Shown here one piece after another: positions 15,666 through 19,425 of a stretch of DNA of 64,000 nucleotides. The translations under genes and the position numbers were made by a program. The DNA comes from Natronorubrum aibiense. Lineage in GTDB: Archaea > Halobacteriota > Halobacteria > Halobacteriales > Natrialbaceae. Each line of letters starts with the position of its first letter. Position 1 is the first letter of the stretch. Location: contig NZ_CP045488.1 of the NCBI RefSeq assembly GCF_009392895.1, forward strand, positions 682,001-746,000, read 5' to 3'. Under the pieces are notes generated by a model that saw only the letters and a list, made by a program, of their open reading frames with translations, did no database searches and had not been told where the DNA came from.

Positions 15666-16598
15666 TCAGTTCTCGCCGTTGACTTCCTCGCGCAGCGTCG
15701 CCATCTCGACGACGCGCTCGGCGTGGGCGTTGTGCTGGTGGATCGACTCGTCGTTAGATTGGGCCATCGTGATCACTGCGTCGTCCGGCAGGTGGTCGAA
15801 TTCGTCGACGACGCCGTCGGCCAGTGCGCGCACGCAGTCCTCGACGAACTTCGCGTCCGCGTGAGCCTCGTAGGTCATATGGTCCTCGTCGGGTCGTTTC
15901 GCGAGATTGTATATTCGGGCGCTCATCGAGTCGCGGGCGATGTCGATAATGTCGTTCAGATCGATCTCCGGATCGCCGTTGGATTCGACGGTCAGCGTCG
16001 CGTGGCCCCGCTGGGAGTGGCCCGGCTGGGGAACCTCTTCCAGGAACTGTGCGATCGTCTCGTCTTCGACGCCGAGGTTCTGGAGCGTCTCTTTCGCGCG
16101 TGAGGTAGACATTCCCTGCGAGCACGGACAGACGGTCATTCCCGTGACTTCCGCACCGATTTCCTCGCGCGTGCCGTCTTCGGTTGCCGTCGCAGACGCG
16201 ATAATATCGACCGTGTGTTGGGTCTCACGATCGCTCGCGGGCGTCTGCTCGCGGCGCATGAACTCGGCTTCCATCGACACTTGCGCTTTCGAGGTGTAAT
16301 CGTGTTTCTCGAGGAGTCGCTCTGCAGCCTCTCCACAGACTTCTTCGACGCGGTAGGCTTCTTCGCGGGTCGCGTCCTCTAAGATCTCGTCGATGACCTC
16401 CATGTTGCGGCTCATGTCTGCGCCCTTACGCCAGGCGGGAAGGTCGACGAAGACCTCGAACTCGGCGGTGAGCACGATCGGTCGTTTCCCCTCACGGGCG
16501 ATCTTGACGAGTTTGTCGACGCCGGTGACGCCGACCTGACTCAGACCGACGGTGACGTCGGGGGACGTCGCCTGCACGTCCGGCAGCTGGTGACTCAT
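15666..16598 (-). CDS. mptA: GTP cyclohydrolase MptA (FolE2-type)
   Basis: Fe(II)-dependent enzyme that opens GTP to 7,8-dihydroneopterin 2',3'-cyclic phosphate, the first step of archaeal pterin (methanopterin or folate) synthesis. About 310 residues, as expected. Seen: [20 protein letters not shown] and [21 protein letters not shown] at the N-terminus, the metal-site region [12 protein letters not shown] near residue 155, and [11 protein letters not shown] after it. The start MSHQLPDVQ is preferred to an ATG three codons earlier. MptD, a later pathway enzyme, lies at 45.6 kb in this window. Convergent with the TrmB gene. Confidence 0.9.
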
Positions 16599-16782
16599 TG
16601 TGCGCACTCAGGGCACGACGCGATTCAACCTTTCGGAACACGACATTCTCGGGCCGATCGGTCGCCCCGGTGAGGTGAGGCCACACTATCCGGAAACGGG
16701 TACTGAACCAGCCGATGAGACGCACTGCTCATGGCAATCACTATTGCGACGGTTGATCGATCGTCTCGTTCGCGTGCGCCGC

Positions 16783-16863
16783 TTTAAGTCCCTCTGGTCA
16801 CAAGGTAGAGCTATGACGGGATACCGTCGTTCTCGAGCATCCGCAACTGGTGAGCAACGGCCA
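16783..16863 (+). promoter_or_regulatory. promoter-like repeat, copy 1 (TATA box plus possible small transcript)
   Basis: TTTAAG at 16783 is followed by CTCTGGTCACAAGGT and, exactly 30 bases after the first T, by A of CTATGACGGGA. The predicted start site falls on this A. The next bases GACGG/CCGTC can form a hairpin. An 18-codon reading frame starting at that ATG could be a leaderless small protein, but the frame is not clearly kept between copies. Confidence 0.65.
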
Positions 16864-16927
16864 CGGTGATTCCCTTCGTTCGTTGATCGAAGCACTCGAG
16901 CAGTGATCGCCGTCGTTGACGGCATCT

Positions 16928-16998
16928 TTTAAGAACCTCTCGTCATAAGACAAAGCTACGACGGGAAGTCATCGTTCTAGGGACACTACACTCCAGCA
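16928..16998 (+). promoter_or_regulatory. promoter-like repeat, copy 2
   Basis: This is the most diverged copy. TTTAAG at 16928, then CTCTCGTCATAAG, and the conserved A of CTACGACGGGA at 16958, again 30 bases on. ATG is ACG here, so no small protein could start at the same place. GAC/GTC can pair downstream. Confidence 0.6.
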
Positions 16999-17082
16999 GT
17001 GCGTCTGGACTTAATCGCACGTCTGGCCCGGGCTGAGTCACTCAGAACTCTCGTGGTTTGCCACTGGTCGAGCCGTCGTTTT

Positions 17083-17171
17083 TTTAAGTATCTCTCGCCA
17101 CAAGGTAGAGCTATGACGGGAAGTCGTCGTTCTCGAGCATCCACAACTGGTGAGCGACGGCCATACACGAC
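17083..17171 (+). promoter_or_regulatory. promoter-like repeat, copy 3
   Basis: TTTAAG at 17083 and A of CTATGACGGGA at 17113. This copy is nearly the same as copy 1 for some 80 bases, including CTCGAGCATCC and CAACTGGTGAGC past the start site. Copies 1 and 3 therefore look like a recent duplication of promoter plus transcript. Confidence 0.65.
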
Positions 17172-17212
17172 AGATACTTCTCGAGGAGCGGCCATCGTCG
17201 GTCCGCCTCTTC

Positions 17213-17252
17213 TTTAAGTACTTCTGGTCACAAGGTGAAGCTACGAAGGGCA
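17213..17252 (+). promoter_or_regulatory. promoter-like repeat, copy 4, likely promoter of the nucleotidyltransferase gene
   Basis: TTTAAG at 17213, CTTCTGGTCACAAGGT, and A of CTACGAAGGGC at 17243. It differs from the ACGACGGGA type and shares ACGAAGGGC only with copy 7, the other copy that lies directly before a long gene. It would give an mRNA with a leader of about 60 nt before the ATG at 17304. Confidence 0.65.
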
Positions 17253-17303
17253 TTTGGGTCTGGTCCACCCGCTTTTGCGGACGCTATTGGTCGAGCAACA
17301 GCT

Positions 17304-18230
17304 ATGGATTCGGTTCCGGCACGTGTTCGGGAGACGGTTGCCGAGACGCTACAGACACTCGAGTCCGAGTACGACGTCGCCATCACGTTGGCGGTCGCCC
17401 GCGGCAGCCACGCCTGGGGAGCGGCGAGTCTCGACAGTGACTACGATGTCGGCGTCGTTTTCGTGCCAACCGATCTGCGCCAGTACGCCCACCTCGAGGG
17501 CCCCACAGAGGTTATCAACCGCGAATATGATGAGATCGACGTTCAGGGCTGGGACGTTCGCACGTTTGCGAGCCTGCTGGCTGACTCCAACGAAGGTGCG
17601 ATCGACACCCTTCGCAGTCCGATCCGCTATCGGACCGTGTACGATCCAGCCGACCTCGCGACCTACCTCGAGGGGACGTACAATCCGATGGACCTCTATC
17701 ACACGTGGCGCGGCATCGCCACGAGCAACTACCGAAAGTACCTCTCGCACCATCTCGTTCGAACCGACGACGAGATCTTCCCGATCGTCGATGTACTCGA
17801 GGACGATACCGCGTACGTCGTCGAAACTGACGCCGGGACGACGACGATTGCGGCCGCCGACGAGCGATTCACCGAGACGCAGACCAAACCCACCGTGAAA
17901 CGGAATCTGATGATCGCTCGAGCGGCGATGTCGGCTCGCTACCTGAAAGCAACTGGCGAGCGTAACAGCCACGAGCTGCCAACACTCGAGTTCGAGCGGT
18001 TCCTGATCGAGCAAGCACCTGCGGTCTTCGATACCGACCGGATCGAACGCGCTCGTGAGTTGCTCGAGCGAAAACGTGCGGGCGAGGGCGACACCACGAT
18101 CGGCGACGCCGTCGGGCGCGACTTCGCCCACCCGCCTCGAGAGATCGACCCCGCGATACACGCACGCGATGGTCCCGATATCGAACAGCTAGACGAGTAT
18201 ATCGACGACCTGATCGCCGCAGTTCAGTAG
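17304..18230 (+). CDS. RlaP-type nucleotidyltransferase (DNA polymerase beta superfamily)
   Basis: About 308 residues. The N-terminus has the polymerase-beta nucleotidyltransferase signature: GSHAWG (34-39) followed by DSDYDVGVVFV with the metal-binding pair Asp46 and Asp48. The rest, with YNPMDLYHTWRGIATSNYRKYL and LMIARAAMSARYL, fits the family known as RlaP or YcgL (RNA repair pathway polymerase beta family), which sits beside RNA ligase or RtcB genes in some bacteria and phages. No RNA ligase is nearby here. Substrate is unknown; transfer of a nucleotide to RNA is inferred from the family name only. The start at 17304 is preferred because a GTG at 17235 lies inside the promoter repeat, before the predicted transcript start. 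Flanked on both sides by promoter-like repeats. Confidence 0.7.
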   Translation: MDSVPARVRETVAETLQTLESEYDVAITLAVARGSHAWGAASLDSDYDVGVVFVPTDLRQYAHLEGPTEVINREYDEIDVQGWDVRTFASLLADSNEGAIDTLRSPIRYRTVYDPADLATYLEGTYNPMDLYHTWRGIATSNYRKYLSHHLVRTDDEIFPIVDVLEDDTAYVVETDAGTTTIAAADERFTETQTKPTVKRNLMIARAAMSARYLKATGERNSHELPTLEFERFLIEQAPAVFDTDRIERARELLERKRAGEGDTTIGDAVGRDFAHPPREIDPAIHARDGPDIEQLDEYIDDLIAAVQ

Positions 18231-18275
18231 CGTACTCATACGACGCTGTGCCACCGGGTGTTCCCACATCGTTCG

Positions 18276-18352
18276 TTTAAGTGCCTCTGGTCATAAGGTG
18301 AAGATACGACGGGACGACGGTCGCTTCTCGAGGACACAAAACTACTCAGCGA
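18276..18352 (+). promoter_or_regulatory. promoter-like repeat, copy 5
   Basis: TTTAAG at 18276, CTCTGGTCATAAGGT, and A of ATACGACGGGA at 18306, 30 bases on. The downstream CTTCTCGAGGACACA matches the conserved tail of the other copies. CGAC and GTCG downstream can form a short stem. It lies just after the nucleotidyltransferase gene. Confidence 0.6.
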
Positions 18353-18383
18353 CTGGTGTCCAAACACGTCCTCTCGACATCGG

Positions 18384-18471
18384 TTTAAGTGCCTCTGCTC
18401 ATAAGGTAGAGCTATGACGGGAGATGGTCGTTCTCGGGAACACATATTCGCGAGTCGTGACTGTCGATAGA
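18384..18471 (+). promoter_or_regulatory. promoter-like repeat, copy 6
   Basis: TTTAAG at 18384, CTCTGCTCATAAGGT, and A of CTATGACGGGA at 18414. An 18-codon frame starts at this ATG. It is 108 bases from copy 5; copies 6 and 7 are 110 bases apart. Confidence 0.6.
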
Positions 18472-18493
18472 TGTGTGACCTATGTCGCTTCTT

Positions 18494-18534
18494 TTTAAGT
18501 CCCTCTGGTTACAAGGTGAAGCTACGAAGGGCTT
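18494..18534 (+). promoter_or_regulatory. promoter-like repeat, copy 7, likely promoter of the RNA polymerase epsilon gene
   Basis: TTTAAG at 18494, CTCTGGTTACAAGGT, and A of CTACGAAGGGC at 18524. It has the same ACGAAGGGC variant as copy 4. The mRNA would have a leader of about 146 nt before the ATG at 18670. No other TATA box closer to the gene is obvious. Confidence 0.6.
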
Positions 18535-18669
18535 TTCGCGGACCTCGAATCCTCGGGAGCGTCAGTGCTGGCGCTCGTTCGAAAATCTGTTATCTGGATA
18601 GACAGTCGTTGCGAACGACGGATCGAGACGAGCGAGCCTTTTTCTGTCTGCCTGTCCGAGCGAGACGTA

Positions 18670-19425
18670 ATGAGAGACGACGGTGCTGAACCCGGTCCGG
18701 ACGCCGGCCAGTCTGTGGCCATCGGCGACAGCCCGCGATCAGAGTACGAGACGGAACGGCGTCTCGAGACGCGGCCCGGCTCCGGCTCGCTCTCTCGAGC
18801 GGACGTCCAGCGCGATTCGACGGTCCGCCAGTGGGGCGTCGTCACGCCGAGTGCGACCGTCATCGGCCGCGCCGAGTCGCCCGACGGGGACCTCTCCGAG
18901 AGCGTTCGTCGCCTCCACGACGAACAGCACGCGGCGACACCGGGCTACAGCGAGCGCGCCCACCGACTCGACCGGCTCCGGACGACGCAGGCGCTGTGTA
19001 ACGCCCTCGACGTGACGCCGTGGCAACGCGATCTCGCTCTGGGCGTGATGGACGAGATCGACCTCCGGGAGTTCGGCAGCCAGCGGGCGATCGAAAAGGT
19101 CGCGCTGGTGGTGATTCGCCACGTGGTCGACGTCGACCGCCAGCAGTACTTCGGGCTGGACGACATCGACGCACAGGCGCTGTCGGCCGAGCGGATGGAC
19201 GAGTTGTTCGGTCAGTACCGGGCCCACGACATCACCGATGAGGAGACGTTCAAACGCCTCGCCGCCGACTACGGACTGGATACGACCAGCCTAAACCGGC
19301 TCCGGCGCGTGCTCAAGTCCCAACTTGAGGACGAGCTCCCAGCCTACGGCCGGAACCCCTACCGAGACCCGAATCTGCCCGACGTGACCGTAACCGGCGA
19401 GGCCGACACCGAAGGCGAGGCCTGA
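18670..19425 (+). CDS. haloarchaeal RNA polymerase subunit epsilon-like protein
   Basis: About 251 residues. It resembles the haloarchaea-specific protein annotated as DNA-directed RNA polymerase subunit epsilon. A basic, disordered N-terminus leads to VRQWGVVTPSATVIGRAE near 55-75. A helical, cyclin-like region follows with TQALCNALDVTPWQRDLAL, FGSQRAIEKVALVVIRHVV and LNRLRRVLKSQLEDELP. The helical core recalls the cyclin folds of transcription factor B, which fits a role in transcription, but its precise job is not well established. The start is ATG 18670; an in-frame extension of 35 residues upstream is basic and unlike the family. Its leader starts at promoter-like repeat 7, so its expression may be tied to that of the nucleotidyltransferase. 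Confidence 0.65.
   Translation: MRDDGAEPGPDAGQSVAIGDSPRSEYETERRLETRPGSGSLSRADVQRDSTVRQWGVVTPSATVIGRAESPDGDLSESVRRLHDEQHAATPGYSERAHRLDRLRTTQALCNALDVTPWQRDLALGVMDEIDLREFGSQRAIEKVALVVIRHVVDVDRQQYFGLDDIDAQALSAERMDELFGQYRAHDITDEETFKRLAADYGLDTTSLNRLRRVLKSQLEDELPAYGRNPYRDPNLPDVTVTGEADTEGEA

Follow-up and report, generated by a model that had tools for sequence, protein, structure and literature searches.

A tandem promoter-like element associated with the gene for RNA polymerase subunit epsilon in haloarchaea

Autoregulated alternative sigma factors of bacteria associate with RNA polymerase and have their own class of promoter in front of their own gene, and the sites and the factor co-occur. Brf2 and further TFIIB-like factors serve small-RNA promoters in eukaryotes. 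In haloarchaea, rRNA is known to have promoters arranged in tandem.

The canonical haloarchaeal BRE is CGAAA, positioned just upstream of the TATA box (PMC4983044). The TBP and TFB paralogues of Halobacterium have been proposed to act on different promoter classes (PMC2121645). A further component of the haloarchaeal transcription machinery is RNA polymerase subunit epsilon, encoded in Hbt. salinarum by rpoeps (OE_1279R; PMC8305020). Biochemical work has recognised epsilon since the early 1980s as a component enabling transcription of native DNA (PMID 6852054 and PMID 2495365, as cited in PMC8305020). Polymerase containing epsilon transcribes native templates efficiently, unlike polymerase without it, and the biological relevance of the subunit is still called enigmatic (PMC8305020). 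No description of a cognate promoter, a regulon or autoregulation for Hbt. salinarum epsilon was found in the literature searched, and none of the element described below.

The window analysed was a stretch of 64,000 nucleotides from Natronorubrum aibiense. It contains seven copies of a repeat of about 38 bp beginning with TTTAAG, all on the plus strand and in register across 52 nt. Copies 1 to 3 (16783..16820, 16928..16965 and 17083..17120) are of type A and copy 4 (17213..17250) is of type B; copies 5 and 6 (18276..18313 and 18384..18421) are of type A and copy 7 (18494..18531) is of type B. A conserved A, taken as the predicted start, stands exactly 30 nt past the first T in 7/7 copies (16813, 16958, 17113, 17243, 18306, 18414 and 18524). 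The 31 bases common to all seven copies were used as a search pattern (TTTAAGNNNCTCTNGTCANAAGGTNNAGCTA). With up to three mismatches allowed, this pattern gave seven matches in the window against 0.00 expected from 100 dinucleotide shuffles. The same seven matches were the only ones in the whole 4.35-Mb genome, and the reversed control gave 0.

The locus is ordered as follows: mptA (folE2-type, opposite strand), copies 1 to 3, copy 4, the RlaP-family gene, copies 5 and 6, copy 7, rpoeps and a DsbA-family gene. Copy 4 lies directly 5' of the RlaP-family nucleotidyltransferase gene (PF10127; 17304..18230, plus strand), with its predicted start 61 nt from the ATG. Copy 7 lies directly 5' of rpoeps (18670..19425, plus strand), which encodes the 251-aa epsilon subunit, and its predicted start is 146 nt from the ATG. 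The other five copies have no same-strand gene of their own ahead of the next copy. The preliminary description had claimed seven TTTAAG repeats with rigid TATA-to-start spacing, two of them preceding the nucleotidyltransferase and epsilon genes and five preceding no long gene; all of this was borne out by the coordinates, the shuffled controls and the gene layout.

The conserved block comprises a TATA-like box, the predicted start and a GANGGG motif. Across 354 non-redundant copies it extends from approximately 3 bases 5' of TTTAAG to about +37 and reads roughly ttcTTTAAGTgctTCTgGtcACAAGGTgnAGnTAcGAngGG. Conservation between the TATA box and the start, to which the preliminary description had drawn attention, is confirmed, but it does not end there: it continues past the start to about +37, and two looser boxes lie beyond. 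These are TTCT (or TTTT/TTTC) and then AGYNRC, mostly 22-24 nt apart, and both sit within the predicted transcripts. In the window they are represented by TTCT at 16830 and AGC at 16853 for copy 1, TTCT at 17130 and AGC at 17153 for copy 3, and TTCT at 18325 and AGCGAC at 18348 for copy 5. Between start and TTCT there are either 9 or 17-19 nt, a bimodal spacing whose two modes differ by close to one helical turn; this could reflect a downstream DNA contact. No two tandem copies are closer together than 100 nt, in keeping with a unit of about 95 bp.

A TATA-like box at the distance of a standard haloarchaeal TBP/TFB promoter (approximately 25-30 bp before the start) was present in 7/7 copies, as measured to the predicted starts. 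The CGAAA BRE is absent upstream of TTTAAG, where the consensus of the 354 copies reads cc.....ttc. The two start types of the window are TAYGACGGGA (type A) and TACGAAGGG[AC]TTTT (type B), and among the family f1 loci read, most have a type B copy nearest rpoeps.

The search was extended to other haloarchaeal genomes, as the preliminary description had suggested. The strict pattern was found in 105 of the 121 genomes of the host family and sparsely in several other families. TATA box and start remain in register across families, and the element is not randomly placed. For a comparison across the class (292 genomes), a relaxed pattern consisting of a 23-base core was used, for which the reversed control gave 0 in every genome. 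The relaxed element was present in 108 of the 292 genomes. A protein search of the same genomes with rpoeps returned 123 strong and 14 distant homologues. A strong rpoeps was found in 107 of the 108 element carriers, and the remaining carrier (G172) has a distant homologue approximately 100 nt from its element. In the resulting cross-table, 107 genomes have both, one has the element with a distant homologue only, 16 have rpoeps without the strict element, and 168 have neither (a class that includes 13 genomes with a distant homologue only). Several of the 16 carry a diverged element, and no recognisable element was found in several rpoeps genomes (genera g57, g45 and g63). Fisher's test gave 4.6e-61 overall and 1.2e-30 outside family f1, statistics that ignore phylogeny.

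The element was found in no genome lacking an epsilon homologue among the 292 searched, the pattern of a sigma-like regulon whose sites occur only where the factor does, again as counted without regard to phylogeny. Gain or loss is also seen within genera. In genus g11, G011 and G070 carry both element and rpoeps and G038 and G057 carry neither; in genus g53, G266 and G289 carry both and G166, G221, G271 and G280 neither. Since the copies remote from rpoeps are also missing in genomes without rpoeps, more is involved than a gene travelling together with its own promoter. The element belongs to a predicted promoter class spread over most haloarchaeal families, and its association with rpoeps, which is new here, is strong.

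Among the loci read, the most constant neighbour of the element is rpoeps. A copy lies shortly upstream of rpoeps in approximately 32 of 40 diverse loci whose neighbours differ, so that here and in those loci the gene of the proposed factor carries a putative cognate promoter, as in a sigma-like regulon. Families with such a copy despite different surrounding genes are f1, f2, f3, f4, f6, f7, f8 and f9. Both Halobacterium genomes (G136 and G140; L180 and L182) have the element before rpoeps. RlaP was considered as the partner of the element and rejected, because arrays persist without it (several in family f1) and the loci read outside f1 showed no RlaP homologue close to the element. Of all families read, f1 alone has RlaP at these loci, and the gene is best described as an optional passenger of the array.

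Other arrangements of the element were also recorded. A second tandem array far from rpoeps, with two to five type A copies and no same-strand gene downstream, is common to three genomes (L053, L054 and L068). In genus g50 (L096, L100 and L101) rpoeps is not the only gene with an element 5' of it; a seryl-tRNA synthetase gene (PF02403, PF00587) has one too. Genes 3' of remote copies (L060, L061, L059, L045 and L074) include those for SfsA, a membrane histidine kinase and a GNAT acetyltransferase. In G069 (L315 and L316) the elements near rpoeps closely follow the gene on its own strand instead of standing upstream, an arrangement like that of the variant modules described below. The number of rpoeps homologues reaches up to four in genomes of family f8 (G307, G310 and G276), and an element lies close to several of these homologues.

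Three or more forms of the start region can be told apart (ATAYGA, AGTRA and ATATAGAC). Among genomes that have remote copies as well as an rpoeps copy, nearly all have remote copies that match the form of the rpoeps copy. This was the case for 6/6 remote copies in G257 and for all classifiable copies in G009, G037, G056, G158, G189, G289 and G326. The exceptions are G266, where remote and rpoeps copies differ in subtype, and G181, in which one remote copy is ambiguous. Such matching is the expected product of a resident trans-acting factor. Amplification within a lineage could contribute, and the concerted evolution of subtypes could itself be such amplification.

The epsilon protein encoded at 18670..19425 has its closest named relatives in Natronorubrum (93-94% identity) and is 66-68% identical to the Halobacterium proteins (L223 and L225). 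Sequence searches with Rpoeps against Pfam, NCBIfam and PDB returned nothing convincing. The TFIIB-repeat profile PF00382 matched none of 29 epsilon family members, and hhalign of the epsilon family against haloarchaeal TFBs gave a probability under 1%. AlphaFold2 models were of low confidence, with a mean pLDDT of 54.4 for the whole protein and 65.5 for the core. Cyclin repeats of TFIIB/Brf2 topped the lists of structural matches for both models, with Z of 7.0 and 6.5, and Foldseek on the same low-confidence models gave E values exceeding 1. Because Z values under 8 are common with this tool, a TFIIB-like fold is a hint and not a result. A TFIIB-like cyclin domain in epsilon, hinted at by these models, would be consistent with an initiation factor.

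Distant paralogues of epsilon (28-45% identity) adjoin a variant of the element, TTTAARTN5-6YTGCGACAAT, also written TTTAAGTATTYCYTGCGACAATATGCG..TGAGG. The variant lies approximately 90 nt downstream of one type of homologue, and upstream of and divergent from another type. The search pattern was built from seven sites, and about half of the sites it matched had not been used in building it. It occurs in exactly 14 of the 292 genomes, and at least 13 of the variant sites are within approximately 0.7 kb of an epsilon-like gene, with the position of a second homologue in G123 not listed. For the downstream type, three predicted RNAs gave more stable folds than their shuffled versions (z -2.2 to -3.4), and compensatory changes were seen in 5 of 13 predicted pairs across nine sequences of the variant modules. 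An RNA-level role looks real for these units, and the variant element appears to drive a predicted structured RNA and not the epsilon gene. A gene hitch-hiking with its own promoter is therefore insufficient as an explanation. Several of the plasmid-borne distant relatives are annotated as RNA polymerase subunit epsilon, and an element was found within approximately 250 nt of an epsilon-like gene in 6 of the 10 plasmid or virus loci examined. In viral contigs no variant element was found, and no epsilon relative was confirmed by tblastn.

Two further observations were made on these relatives. Haloarcula tailed virus 2 (L354, 530-1321) encodes a distant epsilon-like protein with 33% identity over 86 aa, and no element was recognised beside it. 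At L295, L296, L299, L300 and L301, the variant element that is divergent from a 247-aa epsilon-like gene leads into 130-400 nt with several stable hairpins. This stretch is conserved in five genomes, has no match in Rfam and is possibly a large noncoding RNA.

The preliminary description had suggested a dedicated factor and left its identity open. The recurrence of the element in register across families supports the idea well, and the comparative evidence points to the rpoeps product: as the class occurs only in genomes with epsilon or a relative of it, epsilon is probably the factor that reads these promoters. The reading we favour, and regard as rather probable, is that epsilon, alone or with TBP/TFB, is a dedicated and self-regulating initiation factor for this promoter class. 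RNA polymerase carrying epsilon, the product of the last gene of the array, would read the repeats. TBP at TTTAAG and a TFB would probably accompany it, and epsilon may contact the conserved DNA between TATA box and start and so fix the A 30 bases further on as the initiation site. The promoter of rpoeps, putatively autoregulated, would be copy 7, and copy 4 would drive the RlaP gene. The five orphan copies may give short RNAs of approximately 60 nt, or may act as extra start sites, binding sites or decoys. Transcription from the conserved A, contact between epsilon and DNA, and the functions of the RNAs are inferred.

The co-occurrence itself fits alike an epsilon that reads the promoters and an epsilon that is the target of an unseen, co-inherited factor. 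In the latter case, a separate DNA-binding regulator or a TFB/TBP paralogue would recognise the inner section of the element, with rpoeps merely its most conserved target. Most rpoeps genes do lie behind the element, which is what a conserved target predicts, and haloarchaea are rich in TFBs, with 17 TFIIB-repeat matches in this genome; TBP/TFB pairs have been proposed for different promoter classes (PMC2121645). Such a regulator would account for the window. Its losses and gains would nevertheless have to track those of rpoeps inside genera, and it leaves unexplained why distant paralogues on plasmids adjoin a variant element of their own that would drive an RNA and not the paralogue. We consider this explanation unlikely.

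An RNA-level role had been the other suggestion of the preliminary description. It is taken furthest by supposing that each element marks where the gene of a small RNA begins, and that these RNAs, as one family, bind epsilon-containing polymerase or regulate it in a 6S-like manner; the block would be conserved as their shared promoter. The structured RNAs predicted for the variant modules and the five window copies without a gene would suit this, as would the order TTCT, approximately 23 nt, AGYNRC inside the predicted transcripts, which was found in 195 of 395 copies vs 19 of 395 in a control stretch. Against it, the canonical copies have no excess of RNA folding at +30..+90 (mean z -0.01, 354 non-redundant copies) and no clear covariation, with swap tests near zero or marginal. 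Conservation is strongest 5' of the start, a section that transcription from the same copy does not cover. Rfam gave no match on the array (16500-18800, E up to 5) or on seven related loci (E up to 1). Overall, a 6S-like RNA partner is a distinctly improbable account, and one that explains the variants better than the window. The suggestion thus finds no support in the window copies and some, from folding and compensatory changes, in the variant elements beside distant paralogues; as the canonical copies give no sign of RNA structure, the RNA-level alternative is retained mainly for the variant modules. Candidate stems of types A and B were also tried (a GAC..GTC leader hairpin, CGTCGTT with AGCGACG, TTCTC with GAG, and an AGCGAC terminal hairpin); they were at best marginal and unsupported by swap tests, and were rejected.

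That the copies are plain promoters in tandem like those ahead of haloarchaeal rRNA operons, serving only to raise RlaP and rpoeps expression and needing no special factor, would suit their head-to-tail arrangement on one strand with one copy nearest each gene, but is very improbable given the arrays and single copies far from rpoeps with no gene adjoining in the same orientation (L053, L054, L068 and others), a cross-family conservation far above that of a generic TATA/BRE promoter, and the absence of the element from genomes without any epsilon homologue.

Epsilon as a dedicated initiation factor can be extended to its relatives, tentatively and with more doubt than confidence. Epsilon may form, with its distant relatives on plasmids and elsewhere, a family of exchangeable promoter-specificity subunits, each with its own promoter variant and with noncoding RNAs as main products. 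They would make up a system for noncoding-RNA transcription inside the archaeal polymerase, spread in part on mobile elements.

The array resembles the tandem promoters of haloarchaeal rRNA in having head-to-tail copies on one strand. It differs from them in sequence, in having copies that also stand alone or away from genes, and in being tied to the presence of rpoeps; no rRNA operon lies downstream of it, the genes there being RlaP and rpoeps, and 16500-18800 gave no Rfam match. With Brf2 and other TFIIB-like factors, epsilon may share the fold of cyclin repeats, to which its models give a weak match, and a dedication to short noncoding transcripts; sequence similarity is absent and the promoter architecture is unrelated. 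The Halobacterium TBP/TFB paralogues are alike in that a subset of promoters is served by a particular initiation factor, as PMC2121645 proposes, whereas Rpoeps is no recognisable TFB by sequence and the conserved section here lies between TATA box and start and not at the BRE.

The closest protein is Hbt. salinarum epsilon itself, which belongs to the same family as Rpoeps and whose gene has the element before it in both Halobacterium genomes; it differs in being known only as a polymerase component for native templates. An enigmatic subunit is now linked to a concrete DNA sequence, to predicted starts and to a set of units, noncoding for the most part, whose presence and absence follow its own. 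Halobacterium salinarum, a laboratory species, has both rpoeps and the element, which makes the old question directly testable. The bacterial alternative sigma factors offer the nearest parallel in organisation, with the factor gene behind its own promoter class and sites and factor found together. Here the system is archaeal and TATA-based, many copies have no protein-coding gene, and recognition would be by epsilon. If epsilon does read these promoters, archaea have a sigma-like selection of promoters beyond that provided by TBP/TFB paralogues.
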